From Oscillospiraceae bacterium (GTDB lineage: Bacteria > Bacillota > Clostridia > Oscillospirales > Ruminococcaceae): a DNA stretch of 64,000 nt. The position numbers and the translations under genes were made by a program. The notes below the pieces were generated by a model. The model saw nothing but the letters and a program-made list of their open reading frames with translations. It had not been told where the DNA came from and ran no database searches. Shown here piece by piece: positions 3,584 through 10,409 of this stretch. Every line of letters starts with the position of its first letter. The first letter of the stretch is position 1. The stretch spans positions 62,001 to 126,000 of the forward strand of contig JAFTVU010000011.1 of assembly GCA_017465665.1 (NCBI GenBank). Direction: 5' to 3'.

Positions 3584-4189
3584 ATGCTTGAAGATATAAT
3601 TACAAACGCATATAATGATGAGGAGCCTGTTAATGATATACATGCCGAGGATGAGCACGTCATCTATGCTCATGCGGAAAGACTTGACTTCAACCGTGCT
3701 CACCTCACCGACTGCCGCTTTGAGAACTGCGATCTCACAGGCGCATCCTTTCTGAACTGCACTCTCACACGCTGCACATTTGTTGAGTGTAATTTCAGCG
3801 GAGCATATTTCCGTGACACCGTGCTGGAAGATTGCTCTGCAAGCGGCTGCGGCTTCACAAAGGCTCTGTTCAGAAAAACTCAGCTGCGCGGCGGCTTCTA
3901 CCGATACGCCAATTTCAGCGACAGCGTGTTTGAAAGCTCACTGCTTAAGGATGTAAGCCTTGCAGAGAGCGCACTCATACAGGTAAAGCTGAAAAAGACC
4001 GAGCTGATAAGCGCAGATCTCAGCAAATGCGATATACTGGGCACGCCGTTGAAAGGGCTTGACCTTTCAGAATGCAACATCGGCGGTATGCTGCTCTCAG
4101 AGGATCTCCGCGAGCTGAAAGGCTCAAAGATAAGCACCATGCAGGCAGCGGAGCTGATACGGCTGCTGGATATAGAGGTAGTTATTTAA
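3584..4189 (+). CDS. Pentapeptide-repeat protein
   Basis: 201 residues. From about residue 25 to 175 the protein is built of five-residue units with a central F or L and a small residue two before it (LDFNRAHLTDCRFENCDL, then CNFSGAYF and the like). Such proteins fold as a right-handed quadrilateral beta-helix. Some members (Qnr, MfpA) mimic DNA and protect gyrase, but most have no known role, and nothing here selects one. The start at 3584 follows AAAGGAGAT at the ideal distance; an upstream in-frame extension overlaps the AraC gene and is not credible. Cysteines are frequent at the repeat corners. Probably co-transcribed with the regulator. Confidence 0.85.
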   Translation: MLEDIITNAYNDEEPVNDIHAEDEHVIYAHAERLDFNRAHLTDCRFENCDLTGASFLNCTLTRCTFVECNFSGAYFRDTVLEDCSASGCGFTKALFRKTQLRGGFYRYANFSDSVFESSLLKDVSLAESALIQVKLKKTELISADLSKCDILGTPLKGLDLSECNIGGMLLSEDLRELKGSKISTMQAAELIRLLDIEVVI

Positions 4190-4193
4190 ATAG

Positions 4194-4263
4194 TTACAAT
4201 CCGATTACAAACGGTTACAATCCTGTAATAAATATTGCAATGCAAACTTTTTGGATATATAAT
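4194..4263 (+). promoter_or_regulatory. Promoter with three helically phased TTACAA boxes
   Basis: TTGCAA at 4235-4240 and TATAAT at 4258-4263 are separated by 17 bases, about 33 bases before the lipoprotein start. Upstream, TTACAA occurs at 4194, 4205 and 4215, that is every 10 to 11 bases. Two of these are part of a 10-base direct repeat GTTACAATCC (4193 and 4214). This looks like an activator site on one face of the helix. Confidence 0.55.
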
Positions 4264-4296
4264 TTAATCAGAATATTTTTCTGGGGGGAAAGATAT

Positions 4297-7200
4297 ATGA
4301 AAAAAGCGCTTGCAATATTGATAACTGCAATAGCTCTGATAAGCTGTGCAGGCTGTTCAGATCAGAGATACGAGAGCATTTCCGATATAACAGAAGCAAC
4401 AGCGGAAAGTACAGAGCCGCTCGCTTCCGCGGAAACGGAAAGCGCCGATATCACAACAGAGATAAATACTATTGAAAGCTCGGAGCAGTCAGCGGAGACA
4501 TCAGAGCCTGCGGAGGTTGCCCCACCGACTATAACGGAGCAGACCGAATCTGTCACCTATCCCTCACCTGAGGAGGGGCATATATTCATAGATTTCGAGT
4601 ATATCGAAAATGTACAGAGCGTTCCCGAAAGTGAGCTGCATCCGTATGTCTATGAAAATGCGGTGTATGAGCTTAGCAAGCAGGAGGAGTATATCTCGGC
4701 GTGCAAAGATGTGACGGCGCTTGAGGGTGCAGATATCGGTGAATACCTCGACGAGAACGGAACGATAGTCCCGAAGCTGTACAAGGCAGTCCTCGGGGAT
4801 TTCAACGGCGACGGCGGCGACGACTATTTCGTGCTGCTTACCTCGCCCTGTGAAAGCAGCTTTACCGACAGGTTGTCCGAGCTTTACTGGCTGCTGTGGG
4901 TAAGCGACAATGGCGGAGCGTACTATCTGGACGTATTCCGCGATTCGGTAACTGAGATCTCGGTGCTTGACTACGGCATCTGCCAGCAGCTTATCGTCTG
5001 CAACAACGGAACGTTCGGAGCAGGCTGCGCTTCGGGAATATACGGCATCAGTGATGGCAAGGCGGTGTGCCATTACAGCTTCAGGGGAAATTTCACGAAA
5101 GTTGATTGCTTCATCAATGCCTCAGGCTGGCAGGGCAGCGGCGATTTCATGTACTACGATACCGTTGCAGAGGAGTACCGCTGTATCCTCCCAGATAAGG
5201 TCATACCATTTGCAGAGCTGCAGGAAATGGACAAAACAGGCAGCCTTGACGATTATAAGGAAGACTGGGACGGAGCAGCTTCATGGCCTATAGGTCAGCT
5301 TATGTGCGGAAAGTTCTGGTGCATTTCGTTTGGCCCCATGCATCATGGCGGAGAGCCGTATCTGTATGAGAACGGCAGCTTTGTGTACTGCTATGAAAGG
5401 TATCCTGTCCGTGCATCAGAGGAAGAACAATGGGGCGGAAGAAGCTATGTCAGCGGCGGGATAGATTACGATGAGGCTGTGACAACGATGCTCACTCCTG
5501 AGGAGGCAGGCAAACGAGAGATATGGCACGTTGACACCTTTCTGGAGGAGCTGACAGAGATATCCCCCGATAATGTCTTCATCGACTACGAATACATAGA
5601 TGGATATGAGGGGCTCACCGATCCCACGGCTCTTGACGGCGCGGCTGAAGCTGCTCTTGGGGCACTGCTCGCGCATGAAAACTATGCAGCGCTGTCCGCA
5701 CTGACACCTGATATGTCAGAGCAGATAATCACCCATGAAAACGATCCTGCAGCAGAGGAATTCTTTGATGAAAACGGCAAGGTTCAGCCTATCTTTCATG
5801 AGGCTTTCCGCGAGGACTTCAACGGCGACGGAAAAACTGAATGCTTTGTAGCGTACCGTCTGCCGATAGAAAACAGTGGCGGATATCATCTGAGGTATTA
5901 CCTTATATTTGTGAACAGCGACGGAAACGCCGAGGTCGTCAACGATTACTATAACCTTGACCCCGATCTGCTGGATTACGGTGCATTCAAGCACCTTGTA
6001 ATAAACGGCGCTGGCTACTGCGGCGCAGATTCCCACTCCAGCCTTTTCGGCGTTGTCAATAACAGTGCAAGGCTATTCTGTGAGCTGCGCGGCGATTATA
6101 TCAAGTGGAAATGCTTTCTCACCGCAGACGGCTGGCAGGCAAGCGGCGACTTTATGTATTACGATACCATTGCGGAGGAGTACCGTTCCGTTGTGGGGGA
6201 GCTTGTCCCGTTGGATGTTATAAAAGAAATGGACTACACAGGAGCTCTTGTCGATTATACCACAGGTGAGTTCACAGGCTATCCGCCTGAGATATCACTG
6301 ATAGGCGGCAAATATTACGTTGCATGGAGCGGCTGGATGGACAGTGGAAGAGTATTCACCTATGAGAACGGGAAGTTCATATCCGCAGGACAGGATTGCT
6401 ATATCAGGCTTCCCGGCGGTATCACCGAAAAAGGCGTGAAGATAGAAGATATCGACGCGGTAATCGCTTCCATGCTCACTCCTGAGGAGGCTCTGAAGCA
6501 AAAGCAGGCAGAGCGTCTGCCGTCCGAGGGACATATTTTCGTGGATTTCAGCTATATCACTGACTACAAGGGCACTACCGATATCACAGAATGCGGAAAG
6601 TGGTACAGCATGGCGCTGAACTTCCTGAAGCTCGGAGAGGATTATATACGCTTCAACGAGTTATTGAAAAATGAAGACCTCGCAAATATTAAATATTACG
6701 AAACTGCTTTCGCGCCCAATATCACAGATTACCTTGATGAAAACGGCAATATTCAGCCGATACTGAGCGGTGCTTATATCGATGATTACGACCAAAACGG
6801 GCAGGATGAATGCTTTTTGCTTCTGGATATACCGTATTATGTTGAAATCTCTGATTACTGGATAACAAGAAGCTATCTTTACTACGGAAACGGCAAGGGG
6901 ATAAAATATCTCAACGATTTCAGCAATATCTGTGAGATATCAATGCTTGATTACGGCTTATGCAGACAGTTCATCATCCGAGCATACGGAACGATGGGCG
7001 CAGACGAGGGAGCACTGATATACGGCGTTGTTGACGGTGAAGTCGTTAAGCATTACTCATTCCGAGGCGGCTTCACAAAGGTGGATTGTTTTATCAACGC
7101 TTCGGGCTGGATGGGGTTCGGTGACTTCATGTATTATGACACCGTAAGGCAGCAATATCGCGCTGTCGCAAGTGAACATATCCCCACTCCTACAATTCTT

Positions 7201-7473
7201 GAAATGGACAGCACAGGAGCTTTCTCAGAATATTATGACGATTACGAAAATGACCCTGCTTCGCTGCCGTGGTTTATGCTGGTAGGCGGAAAATACTATT
7301 GCCTATGGTTAGGTTCCAGTGACATGGGTACTCCTTATCTCTACAAAAACGGCTGCTTCGTGCCCTGCGAAGATAATGTCAGAGTATCGGCAGGCTTACC
7401 CTATATTGAGCTTGATTACGACTCGGCAATCGCTTCCATGCTCTCCCCCGAACAAGCCGCGCATTGTACATAA
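4297..7473 (+). CDS. Large surface lipoprotein with three tandem repeats and calcium-type loops
   Basis: 1058 residues. The N-terminus is a lipoprotein signal (KK then a hydrophobic stretch with candidate lipid cysteines at 17 and 20), followed by a Ser/Thr/Glu-rich linker to about residue 88. Three homologous units of roughly 315 to 335 residues follow, at about 89-420, 425-740 and 743-1058. Each starts with a (F)IDFEYI-like block. Each holds a loop of the D-x-(D/N)-x-(D/N)-G type (DFNGDGGDD near 168, DFNGDGKTE near 507, DYDQNGQDE near 830), and later the block GWxxxGDFMYYDT (near 275, 610 and 934). The loops resemble those of FG-GAP or EF-hand-like calcium sites. I do not recognise the family and assign no function. 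The start at 4297 follows GGGGGGAAAG. Confidence 0.8.
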   Translation: MKKALAILITAIALISCAGCSDQRYESISDITEATAESTEPLASAETESADITTEINTIESSEQSAETSEPAEVAPPTITEQTESVTYPSPEEGHIFIDFEYIENVQSVPESELHPYVYENAVYELSKQEEYISACKDVTALEGADIGEYLDENGTIVPKLYKAVLGDFNGDGGDDYFVLLTSPCESSFTDRLSELYWLLWVSDNGGAYYLDVFRDSVTEISVLDYGICQQLIVCNNGTFGAGCASGIYGISDGKAVCHYSFRGNFTKVDCFINASGWQGSGDFMYYDTVAEEYRCILPDKVIPFAELQEMDKTGSLDDYKEDWDGAASWPIGQLMCGKFWCISFGPMHHGGEPYLYENGSFVYCYERYPVRASEEEQWGGRSYVSGGIDYDEAVTTMLTPEEAGKREIWHVDTFLEELTEISPDNVFIDYEYIDGYEGLTDPTALDGAAEAALGALLAHENYAALSALTPDMSEQIITHENDPAAEEFFDENGKVQPIFHEAFREDFNGDGKTECFVAYRLPIENSGGYHLRYYLIFVNSDGNAEVVNDYYNLDPDLLDYGAFKHLVINGAGYCGADSHSSLFGVVNNSARLFCELRGDYIKWKCFLTADGWQASGDFMYYDTIAEEYRSVVGELVPLDVIKEMDYTGALVDYTTGEFTGYPPEISLIGGKYYVAWSGWMDSGRVFTYENGKFISAGQDCYIRLPGGITEKGVKIEDIDAVIASMLTPEEALKQKQAERLPSEGHIFVDFSYITDYKGTTDITECGKWYSMALNFLKLGEDYIRFNELLKNEDLANIKYYETAFAPNITDYLDENGNIQPILSGAYIDDYDQNGQDECFLLLDIPYYVEISDYWITRSYLYYGNGKGIKYLNDFSNICEISMLDYGLCRQFIIRAYGTMGADEGALIYGVVDGEVVKHYSFRGGFTKVDCFINASGWMGFGDFMYYDTVRQQYRAVASEHIPTPTILEMDSTGAFSEYYDDYENDPASLPWFMLVGGKYYCLWLGSSDMGTPYLYKNGCFVPCEDNVRVSAGLPYIELDYDSAIASMLSPEQAAHCT

Positions 7474-7536: not shown

Positions 7537-7565
7537 TTGACAAAAGTTTAACAATGGTGTAAAAT
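7537..7565 (+). promoter_or_regulatory. adhE promoter overlapped by a Rex-type operator
   Basis: TTGACA at 7537-7542 and TAAAAT at 7560-7565 have a 17-base spacer. The 18 bases 7537-7554 match the clostridial Rex operator TTGTTAA-N4-TTAACAA at 12 of 14 defined positions, with the right half perfect. Rex is the NADH/NAD-sensing repressor known to control adhE in clostridia. The site covers the -35 box and spacer, as expected for repression. No rex gene lies in this window. Confidence 0.65.
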
Positions 7566-7587
7566 ATGCTCATGGGGCGAATAATAA

Positions 7588-7729
7588 TCCTATAATATAT
7601 GTTATGAAAACGAAGTTTTCATAAAGTCTGCGAAAGCAGACCGCCGCAAAGCGGCGAACATATATTTCAGGGTTCACTCAGCCGTCCAAATCTTTGATTT
7701 GGCGAACGGCGTGTGGTTCCTATAATATA
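7588..7729 (+). repeat. 12-base direct repeat bracketing the adhE leader structure
   Basis: TCCTATAATATA occurs at 7588-7599 and again at 7718-7729, with the junction and the fourth hairpin between. This could be the footprint of an inserted small element, or simply two copies of a -10-like sequence (TATAAT at 7591 and 7721). Confidence 0.5.
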
Positions 7730-7754
7730 AGGCATCAAGTGCAGGGCACTGCAC
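7594..7754 (+). ncRNA. Folded adhE leader: four-way junction plus two further hairpins
   Basis: The 308-base gap before adhE holds a promoter and then this element. A 10-bp stem (7594-7603 with 7657-7666) closes three stacked hairpins: 8 bp with loop GAA (7604-7622), 6 bp with a GAAA tetraloop (7626-7641), and 6 bp with loop AAA (7642-7656). Only three bases (7623-7625) are unpaired at the junction. A fourth hairpin (7681-7710) has stems of 5 and 7 bp with a CGA bulge. A fifth (7739-7754) has 6 bp and loop GGCA and lies 10 bases before the ribosome site. None has a T run, so a terminator is not evident. It may be a regulatory RNA or an inserted palindromic repeat; I know no named family that matches. 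Confidence 0.55.
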
Positions 7755-7781
7755 GGTATATATTTTAAGGAGAAGAACATT

Positions 7782-10409
7782 ATGAAGAACTACGAGATCG
7801 TTGACAGCGTTGAAAAGCTGGAAGCCGCTTTCGCTAGGGTGAGAAAGGCTCAGGCAAAATTTGCCGAGTACACACAGGAGCAGGTAGATAAGATATTCCT
7901 CGCTGCTGCGTCCGCTGCAAACAAGCAGCGCATCCCCCTCGCAAAGATGGCTGTCGAGGAGACAGGCATGGGTGTTGTTGAGGACAAGGTCATCAAGAAC
8001 AACTATGCTGCAGAGCACATCTACAACGCATACAGAGATACCAAGACCTGCGGTATCATCGAGCGTGACGAAGCTTACGGCGTGTGCAAGGTAGCAGAGC
8101 CTATCGGTGTTGTGGCTGCTGTTATCCCCACAACCAACCCCACATCCACTGCAATATTCAAGACACTCATCTCTCTCAAGACAAGAAACGGTATCATCAT
8201 CAGCCCCCACCCCAGAGCTAAGAAGTCCACAATCGAGGCTGCCAAGATCGTTCTGGAGGCTGCAGTTGCAGCTGGCGCTCCCGAGGATATCATCGCTTGG
8301 ATAGATATCCCCTCTCTTGAGCTCACAAACACCGTAATGAAAGAGGCTGACATCATCCTCGCAACAGGCGGTCCCGGCATGGTCAAGGCTGCTTACTCCA
8401 GCGGCAAGCCCGCTCTCGGCGTAGGCGCAGGTAATACCCCTGCTATCATCGATGATACTGCAGATGTACTCAAGGCAGTAAGCTCCATCATCCATTCCAA
8501 GACCTTTGATAACGGTATGATATGCGCATCCGAACAGTCCGTTATCGCAGTGGGCAAGATCTATGATAAAGTAAAGAAAGAATTTGAACTGCGTGGCTGC
8601 TACTTCCTCAAGGACAAGGAGATAGACAAGGTACGCAAGACCATCATCATCAACGGCGCACTCAACGCAAAGATCGTTGGTCAGTCCGCATACAGAATTG
8701 CTGAGCTTTCGGGCGTTAAGGTTCCCGAATCCACCAAGATCCTCATCGGCGAGGTGGAGAGCGTGGATATCTCCGAGGAGTTCGCACACGAGAAGCTCTC
8801 CCCTGTTCTTGCTATGTACAAGGCAAAGAACTTTGCAGACGCTCTCGACAAGGCTGACCGCCTCATTCAGGACGGCGGCTTCGGTCATACCGCTTCCCTC
8901 TATATCAATGAGATCACAGAGCGTGAGAAGATCGAGCAGTATGCAGAGCGCATGAAGGCTTGCCGTATGCTCGTGAATACACCTTCCTCCCACGGTGGTA
9001 TCGGTGATCTGTACAACTTCAAGCTGGCTCCCTCCCTCACACTGGGCTGCGGTAGCTGGGGCGGCAACTCCGTTTCCGACAACGTAGGTGTAAAGCACCT
9101 GTTAAATATCAAGACTCTGGCTGAGAGGAGAGAGAATATGCTGTGGTTCAGAGCTCCTGAAAAGGTATACATCAAAAAGGGCTGTCTGCCCGTTGCACTT
9201 ACCGAGCTTAAGCAGGTACTCGGCAAGAAGCGCGTGTTCATCGTAACTGACTCCTTCCTCTTCAAGAACGGCTATACAAAGTGCGTAAGCGACAAGCTGG
9301 ATGAAATGGGCATCACCCATACAACATTCGCTGACGTTGAGCCCGATCCCACCCTTGCATCCGCAAAGGCAGGCGCTGCTGCTATGAGAAGCTTCGAGCC
9401 CGACTGCATCATCGCTATCGGCGGCGGTTCCGCAATGGACGCTGCAAAGATCATGTGGGTACTGTATGAGCACCCCGAGGCTGACTTCATGGATATGGCA
9501 ATGCGCTTCATCGATATCCGCAAGAGAGTATACACATTCCCCAAGATGGGCGAAAAAGCTTACTTCATCGCTATCCCCACATCCGCAGGTACAGGCTCTG
9601 AGGTTACTCCTTTCGCAGTTATCACTGACGAGAAGACAGGCACAAAGTATCCTCTGGCTGACTACGAACTGCTTCCTAAAATGGCTATCGTTGACTGCGA
9701 TCTGATGATGAGCGGCCCCAAGGGTCTGACATCCGCATCCGGTATCGACGCTGTTACACACGATCTGGAAGCACTTGTTTCCGTAATGGCAACAGACTAC
9801 ACAGACGGACTTGCAAAGCAGTCCCTGAAGATGATATTCGATTACCTCCCCAGAGCTTACGAAAGCGCAGCTCCCGATGTTCCCAACGATGTTGAAGCCC
9901 GCGAGAAGATGGCTAATGCCGCTACAATGGCAGGTATGGCTTTCGCGAACGCATTCCTCGGCGTATGCCACTCCATGGCTCATAAGCTGGGTGCGTTCCA
10001 TCACCTGCCTCACGGTGTTGCAAATGCTCTGCTCATAAACGAAGTAATCCGCTTCAACTCCGCAGAGGCTCCCGCAAAAATGGGCACATTCTCCCAGTAC
10101 GATCACCCCAAGACCCTTGCAAAGTATGCAGAGGTTGCTGAGTACCTGGGTGTAAAGGGTAAGAGCGATGCGGATAAGGTCGAGGGTCTCATTGCAAAGA
10201 TAGATGATCTCAAGGAGAAGATCGGCATCAAGGCTACCATCAAGGATTACGGCATCGACGAAAAGGACTTCCTCGACAGACTTGACGACATGGTGGAGCA
10301 GGCATTTGACGACCAGTGTACAGGCGCTAACCCCAGATATCCGCTGATGGCTGAGATCAAGCAGATGTACCTCAACGCATACTACGGCAAGACCACAAAG
10401 CTGAACTGA
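7782..10409 (+). CDS. adhE: Bifunctional aldehyde-alcohol dehydrogenase AdhE
   Basis: 875 residues, the normal length for AdhE. It reduces acetyl-CoA to acetaldehyde and then ethanol, using two NADH, and so disposes of reducing power in fermentation. Residues 1 to about 445 are the CoA-acylating aldehyde dehydrogenase domain with catalytic Cys248 in NGMICASEQS. From about 455 on is the iron-dependent alcohol dehydrogenase, with the nucleotide block GGGSAMDAAK and the metal-binding run CHSMAHKLGAFHHLPHG. AdhE forms long helical filaments (spirosomes) in the cytoplasm. AAGGAG lies 10 bases before the ATG. The kinase-like gene follows after 16 bases and is probably in the same transcript. Confidence 0.97.
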   Translation: MKNYEIVDSVEKLEAAFARVRKAQAKFAEYTQEQVDKIFLAAASAANKQRIPLAKMAVEETGMGVVEDKVIKNNYAAEHIYNAYRDTKTCGIIERDEAYGVCKVAEPIGVVAAVIPTTNPTSTAIFKTLISLKTRNGIIISPHPRAKKSTIEAAKIVLEAAVAAGAPEDIIAWIDIPSLELTNTVMKEADIILATGGPGMVKAAYSSGKPALGVGAGNTPAIIDDTADVLKAVSSIIHSKTFDNGMICASEQSVIAVGKIYDKVKKEFELRGCYFLKDKEIDKVRKTIIINGALNAKIVGQSAYRIAELSGVKVPESTKILIGEVESVDISEEFAHEKLSPVLAMYKAKNFADALDKADRLIQDGGFGHTASLYINEITEREKIEQYAERMKACRMLVNTPSSHGGIGDLYNFKLAPSLTLGCGSWGGNSVSDNVGVKHLLNIKTLAERRENMLWFRAPEKVYIKKGCLPVALTELKQVLGKKRVFIVTDSFLFKNGYTKCVSDKLDEMGITHTTFADVEPDPTLASAKAGAAAMRSFEPDCIIAIGGGSAMDAAKIMWVLYEHPEADFMDMAMRFIDIRKRVYTFPKMGEKAYFIAIPTSAGTGSEVTPFAVITDEKTGTKYPLADYELLPKMAIVDCDLMMSGPKGLTSASGIDAVTHDLEALVSVMATDYTDGLAKQSLKMIFDYLPRAYESAAPDVPNDVEAREKMANAATMAGMAFANAFLGVCHSMAHKLGAFHHLPHGVANALLINEVIRFNSAEAPAKMGTFSQYDHPKTLAKYAEVAEYLGVKGKSDADKVEGLIAKIDDLKEKIGIKATIKDYGIDEKDFLDRLDDMVEQAFDDQCTGANPRYPLMAEIKQMYLNAYYGKTTKLN

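Follow-up and report, generated by a model that had tools for sequence, protein, structure and literature searches.

The window, that is, the whole stretch of 64,000 nucleotides analysed here, carries adhE with its promoter P1 and a highly folded leader between them, and most of this leader belongs to a small repeat (Table 1). The insert length of the window copy, counted from the start of one terminal octamer to the start of the other, is 130 bp. A long ORF is located directly upstream of adhE (window 4072-7473, +); by eye, it comprises three related tandem domains of about 300 amino acids, with a lipoprotein-like start inside.

Table 1. Features of the adhE leader and of the repeat within it (window positions).
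Feature	Positions	Strand	Basis
adhE promoter P1: TTGACA, 17 nt, TAAAAT	7537..7565	+	conserved in the two nearest adhE orthologues
Whole repeat unit, TATAATAT at each end	7591..7728	+	other copies; empty-site boundaries
Left TATAATAT (putative target copy)	7591..7598	+	left ends of other copies have this octamer or a close variant
Four-way junction (predicted)	7594..7666	+	fold of the window copy alone
Bulged hairpin, most conserved part of the repeat	7669..7721	+	comparison of copies and fold
Right TATAATAT	7721..7728	+	outward promoter-like site with TTGGCG at 7699, 10/12
Host-leader hairpin, outside the repeat (predicted)	7739..7754	+	fold
adhE Shine-Dalgarno sequence AAGGAG	7767-7772	+	
adhE, bifunctional acetaldehyde-CoA/alcohol dehydrogenase	7782..10409	+	NF010378, 1377.8 bits, cut-off 951

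The leader from 7560 to 7780 (221 nt) has a minimum free energy (MFE) of −77.6 kcal/mol, compared with −47.65 ± 3.99 kcal/mol in 200 shuffled sequences, none of which (0/200) folded as well (z = −7.51). When the window copy is folded alone, a closing stem of 9 bp (7594-7602/7658-7666) encloses hairpins 7603-7623 (GAA loop), 7626-7641 (GAAA loop) and 7642-7656 (AAA loop), with three unpaired junction bases (7624, 7625 and 7657). A reading made earlier from the sequence only had described a closing stem of 10 bp, one pair too long, whereas its three enclosed hairpins, three unpaired bases and single GAAA tetraloop agree with this fold. It had further placed two hairpins before the ribosome site; both are found, the second of them outside the repeated unit. 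Its account of all arms as perfectly paired apart from one bulge is correct for the small hairpins but not for the large one, which contains a 3-nt bulge as well as G.U and U.U positions. In the MFE structure of the longer leader, a strand of the closing stem pairs with an AT-rich stretch near the ribosome site; this alternative has an ensemble frequency of 0.0036 and is missing from the centroid. The same low-frequency structure includes a predicted long-range pairing of UCCU (7588-7591) with AGGA (7768-7771), which would cover the adhE Shine-Dalgarno sequence.

The common layout of the repeat is TATAATATATG, three hairpins, then CATATATTTCAAGGTTCNC..AGCCGTCCAAATCTTTGATTTGG..AACGGCGTGNGGTTCTTATAATA, so that each unit comprises three small hairpins and one bulged hairpin. 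The small hairpins vary in sequence among the copies and keep their pairing; in the bulged hairpin, two N positions covary (G-C in 16, U-A in 6 and A-U in 2 of 24 rows). The MFE structures of the 27 unique full-length copies contain the three small hairpins in 26 cases and the local closing stem in 14, because a strand of this stem can pair with the right end instead. The anatomy given here was taken from single-copy folds and not from the consensus fold. MAFFT misplaces hairpins 1 and 2 when the copies are aligned, and the consensus fold and the covariance model (built from 24 copies) therefore hold only 28 pairs; for 10 of these pairs, both partners are substituted in one copy or more. No terminal inverted repeat of at least 12 nt links the ends of the repeat; the sole inverted pair found at this minimum length, 7586-7603 with 7657-7674, does not involve the right end.

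The repeat is dispersed. BLAST with positions 7585-7782 detects it at seven places of its own genome at E ≤ 1e-5, the window copy included, and at two further places weakly; two of these arrays reach contig ends. Carriers number 11 of 61 genomes by BLAST (the own genome included, all within the genus) and 13 of 43 genus genomes by the covariance model (own genome included), with 21 matches in one genus genome and 13 in another. Outside the genus but within its family, one genome (recorded as Roseburia sp.) gave nine covariance-model matches. Records with the repeat are mostly metagenome assemblies assigned to Clostridia or Oscillospiraceae, many of them from rumen or gut. Tandem arrays are common, with copies 127 bp apart and a unit of about 127-130 bp; in the L029 array (G008:C257), another hairpin-bearing stretch is nested within one tandem unit. 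Matches were found neither in phage and plasmid records (blastn) nor in viral contigs (exact pattern). A search of Rfam 15 gave no meaningful match at gathering or permissive thresholds; the sequence-only reading, too, had named no riboswitch class for the structure.

Genes downstream of the copies are unrelated to each other (adhE, spoVG, rpmF, malQ, hprK, leuS and others). Curated NCBIfam cut-offs are exceeded by the products of adhE, spoVG, rpmF, malQ, hprK (two species) and a P-type ATPase gene, while two names come from best matches below the cut-off: leuS, which is truncated by a contig end, and an rlmA-type rRNA methyltransferase. The protein downstream of L026 has no NCBIfam match, and "VWA-like" is the analyst's own label for it. 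Among the fetched loci of each gene, the element is present at 2/30 for hprK, 1/30 for malQ and 1/30 for spoVG; at hprK, it occupies the promoters of two diverged species, at L192 (G015) and L198 (G031). Many copies beside unrelated genes, here recovered by BLAST and by the covariance model, were what the sequence-only reading expected of a repeat.

Folding is more stable for the sense strand than for the complement in all 27 copies (mean −56.1 versus −51.8 kcal/mol; the narrowest difference, in one copy, is 0.2 kcal/mol), since conserved G.U and U.U positions (GGTTC opposite GGTTC) correspond to A.C and A.A in the complement; as the copies are related, 27/27 does not amount to 27 independent tests. 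This result fits a function of the sense RNA as well as recognition of a single top DNA strand by an enzyme. Orientation relative to genes was estimated by a crude gene test, a ribosome binding site plus ORF within 250 nt, for the 30 arrays with the right end GGTTC(T/C)TA, six of which lack one flank at a contig end. Such a gene lies on the sense side in 20/30 arrays, on the antisense side in 8/30 and on both sides in 4/30.

An adhE match is present in 37 of the 43 genus genomes, and 30 of 40 listed matches were fetched as loci (two of these with less than 220 nt upstream of the gene). The repeat profile (nhmmer, E ≤ 1e-3) matches the window locus only, so that 29/30 fetched adhE loci, the two closest relatives included, do not have the stems upstream of adhE. 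These two closest orthologues (G061 and G017) share TTGACA-17-TAAAAT and carry a second promoter-like pair (TTAACA-16-TATAAA and TTGACA-17-TAAAAT), with its −10 placed 26 and 27 nt past the first −10. The left octamer of the window repeat is located 25 nt past the −10 of P1, with no second −35 there; the repeat sits at about the place where the two nearest orthologues have their second promoter. In comparison with the G061 leader, the window leader scores 102 with the repeat removed and 76 with it kept, and in comparison with G017 both forms score equally (89.0 for the filled and 89.5 for the emptied form); these relatives are too diverged to place the insertion junction to the base. The predicted structure likely forms part of the transcribed sense leader. 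The leader structure is real, yet it is not an adhE-specific regulator: the earlier proposal of a leader RNA controlling adhE is made very unlikely by the lack of the element at 29/30 fetched adhE loci and its presence before unrelated genes. A second adhE, 89% identical to that of the window, is found at G000:C25:5624-8230, with the same query range as that of G028; it may come from another species, since the assembly is rated 8.79% contaminated.

Clean pairs of filled and empty orthologous sites were obtained three times, twice at hprK and once at malQ; in a single pair of genomes, such a difference is compatible with insertion and also with precise loss. At hprK, G031 has the filled form TTGTATAATAATAT, insert, TAACTACAGC, and G016 the empty form TTGTATAATAATATTAACTACAGC. 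The insert is 128 bp long. The last 46 nt before the left junction do not differ between the two genomes, nor do the 43 nt that begin with ATAATAT on the right; further left, identity is 63/80 nt before TTGTATAATAATAT. The second hprK pair consists of G015 (filled; GGTGTATAATATA, insert ending in TATAATATA, TTGTGAAGTG) and G004 (empty; GGTGTATAATATAGTTTGAGGTG). At malQ the roles are reversed: G004 is filled with two units (AATATAATAT, insert ending in TTATAATAT, TCATATA) and G015 is empty (AATATAATATTCATATA); this junction was read directly from the sequences and not from the automatic alignment. In all three pairs, both alleles possess a −35 sequence (TTGACA, TTGAAA or TTGCAA) 17 nt before the −10 box; since the empty alleles have both boxes, the promoter exists without the repeat. 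The repeat lies directly 3' of the −10 box, or, in the G031 case, 5 nt further on. The two ends of the insert have 7-9 nt in common, and, because the end sequence is nearly the same at every site, a duplicated target and a fixed end of the element look alike here. The rlmA locus in G067 and G074 (65% protein identity) has a similar appearance and is too diverged for an exact junction; no clear empty junction was seen among the spoVG orthologues compared.

For the left ends, 35 unique cases were collected, from which 8 inside tandem arrays were set aside and 27 used. Exact TATAATAT is present at 17/27 of them, and near forms (e.g., GATAATAT and CATAATAA) at the other 10. TTGACA occurs with 6/6 identity at exactly 17 nt upstream in 9/27 (eight of these being independent, since L087 and L153 share their upstream sequence), and at least 4/6 positions agree in 12/27, while at spacers of 15, 16, 18 and 19 nt a −35 of even 4/6 was found in 0/27. 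Copies just downstream of a complete promoter are represented by the window, L019 and L033; at most 3/6 of a −35 at spacers of 15-19 nt is seen for copies such as L016, L018, L022, L040 and that of spoVG in G000. The 107 other TATAATAT sites in the DNA analysed served as a control set, in which fetched promoters are over-represented. With a spacer of 17 nt, a −35 matching in at least 5/6 positions occurs at 16/107 of them, versus 9/27 at the repeat (one-sided Fisher p 0.032), and one matching in at least 4/6 at 22/107 versus 12/27 (p 0.013). By these counts, the octamer alone explains most of the location in promoters, and active choice of promoters beyond the octamer is only weakly supported. 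As judged from the junctions, the best reading of the insertion target is a promoter −10 box, (T)ATAATAT, which would be kept at both ends.

Very probably, the repeat is a non-autonomous mobile element, about 127-130 bp long, whose insertion point is immediately 3' of (T)ATAATAT and which leaves the octamer at both ends. A mobile palindromic repeat was among the possibilities of the sequence-only reading, and this one gains support from the dispersion, the unrelated gene neighbours and the empty sites. Most likely, a trans-acting enzyme would recognise the folded top strand, in which the bulged hairpin is the most conserved part, and join it 3' of the octamer. Insertions would land in promoters and in the sense direction because (T)ATAATAT is often a sigma70 −10 box, and, with the octamer left at both ends, the promoter should still fire. 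The transcript would then start in or just before the first stem, so that the gene would acquire from the inserted repeat a highly folded 5' leader of about 130 bases, which could affect mRNA stability or translation. The right-hand octamer could serve as the next target, further insertion giving the 127-bp tandem arrays.

More tentatively, the repeat may represent a class of elements for which the sigma70 −10 box is itself the site of attachment, with entry perhaps into the non-template strand while this is melted in an open promoter complex; insertion would rebuild the box and install a structured 5' RNA, and sister families would use other targets with the same bulged-hairpin mark. If this is true, such an element could therefore spread as a ready-made leader without breaking genes. 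Promoter insertions normally harm, whereas here the −10 box is kept and the gene would gain a folded sense leader. Coupling of insertion to transcription, if it takes place, would be a new mode of target choice and a natural route to new leader RNAs. Strongly folded leaders in gut Clostridia are also not necessarily riboswitches: the same fold precedes adhE, hprK, malQ, spoVG, rpmF and leuS.

The enzyme search covered the Y1_Tnp and TnpB families in draft genomes, which break at such repeats. RAYTs would also fall under Y1_Tnp (PF01797). This family is present in 9/43 genus genomes (4/13 with the element and 5/30 without it), which gives no association; element ends were found at 0/16 Y1 loci (nhmmer E ≤ 10), and no autonomous copy with the same ends was seen among these 16 loci. 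TnpB (PF07282) exceeded its cut-off in 0/10 genomes. Y1 and TnpB transposases were rejected as partners, as neither association nor shared ends could be detected. As to the class, the repeat resembles MITEs in being short, non-coding and dispersed, with clean empty sites in relatives; terminal inverted repeats (at least 12 nt) and an autonomous relative (at the 16 Y1_Tnp loci) were not found. Elements of the IS200/IS605 type have subterminal structure that is read as a single strand, and insert 3' of a short fixed sequence. The repeat has insertion 3' of a fixed short sequence and hairpins near both ends, and the carrier genomes searched yielded no Y1 (HUH) TnpA or TnpB partner.

Several other explanations have to be weighed against a mobile repeat. 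A leader RNA that evolved to regulate adhE in cis, in the manner of a riboswitch or by binding a protein, could account for the stable fold, the conserved upstream promoter, the paired changes among the copies (10/28 predicted pairs) and the predicted pairing of UCCU with AGGA of the Shine-Dalgarno sequence. It is made highly improbable by the 29/30 fetched adhE loci that lack the element, by the failure to match Rfam, by the copies before unrelated genes and by the empty alleles at hprK and malQ. Equally hard to credit is the duplication of a native transcription unit (a small RNA, or a leader with its own −10 box) together with its promoter: the left octamer is indeed correctly placed as a −10 box in 12/27 copies, but, L087/L153 excepted, no relationship is seen between the −35 flanks and spacers of different copies, and the empty alleles have the promoter without the repeat.

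A repeat that is mobile by origin could also have become a shared leader element, stabilising or tuning several mRNAs. The sense bias (20/30 versus 8/30), the better folding of the sense strand (27/27) and the hprK promoters with the repeat in two diverged species (G015 and G031) are consistent with this role, which is possible though on balance not probable: a mobile DNA recognised in single-stranded form would be expected to conserve its hairpins just as well, and the element is missing from 28/30 hprK and 29/30 malQ loci. By analogy, a derivative of the IS200/IS605 type (HUH, single-strand), similar to palindrome-associated elements and moved by a TnpA-like enzyme, may be considered as well. 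Insertion 3' of a short fixed sequence, ends without an inverted repeat between them, hairpins near both ends and one better-folding strand would suit such a derivative; it appears rather unlikely, given the lack of association with Y1_Tnp, of element ends at the Y1 loci and of TnpB (0/10 genomes), and the same octamer at both ends is also expected of a target duplication.

By analogy with described families, the mobile repeat is a small interspersed repeat of the kind of BOX, RUP and Correia elements, set apart by its putative −10-box target and its predicted sense leader. A literature search gave no description of the repeat or of an element targeting the −10 box; most subscription papers lay outside its scope, which makes it weak evidence. 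The BOX and RUP repeats of pneumococcus are described as short, highly folded and dispersed, frequently in clusters in which one has inserted into another; they are regarded as probable parasites, may be co-transcribed with adjacent genes, are over-represented between convergent genes and have terminal inverted repeats resembling those of an IS (PMC3049150). Compared by description, the present repeat is likewise short, highly folded, dispersed and often clustered, but it favours sense 5' leaders, has the fixed target (T)ATAATAT and has ends without a linking inverted repeat. Correia elements and other MITEs are described as non-autonomous and located upstream of genes with promoter-like sequence inside, one Correia element lying just downstream of the mtrCDE promoter (PMC10969869). 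Thus described, Correia brings a promoter, whereas the present repeat would enter an existing −10 box and leave it in place. Intergenic palindromic units in composite arrays are shared with REP/BIME (RAYT transposases), whose palindromes typically bear a GTAG or CGTC tag. REPs are reported to measure 20-40 bp (PMC2817692, PMC3733652), in contrast to the unit of about 127 bp with four hairpins and no Y1 transposase association found here. The likeness to IS200/IS605 concerns target and structure, as generally known for that group, and comes with no TnpA/TnpB partner found.

In the wider order, the same covariance model (E ≤ 0.001) gave matches in 21/394 genomes and 13/168 genera; in most of the distant matches examined, the bulged hairpin recurs with different ends. 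A sister family (L023, L037, L041, L047, L051, L282, L284, L290 and others; 18 model matches in one genome, G068) has direct ATTATACCAT-like copies at both ends; it shares the bulged hairpin and arranges its small hairpins in a comparable way. The ATTATACCAT-like end is the reverse complement of the extended −10 ATGGTATAAT; when such ends are read as a −10 of the opposite strand, at least 4/6 of a −35 at a spacer of 17 nt is found for 3/21 non-tandem ends, and 1-2 are found at several other spacers. In other Clostridia, a third group (L042, L045, L046, L048, L056, L064, L068, L071, L078 and L086) retains the bulged hairpin core, to which a second hairpin is added in some cases; it ends in GCGATCGCA and is often preceded by GTTGAG.
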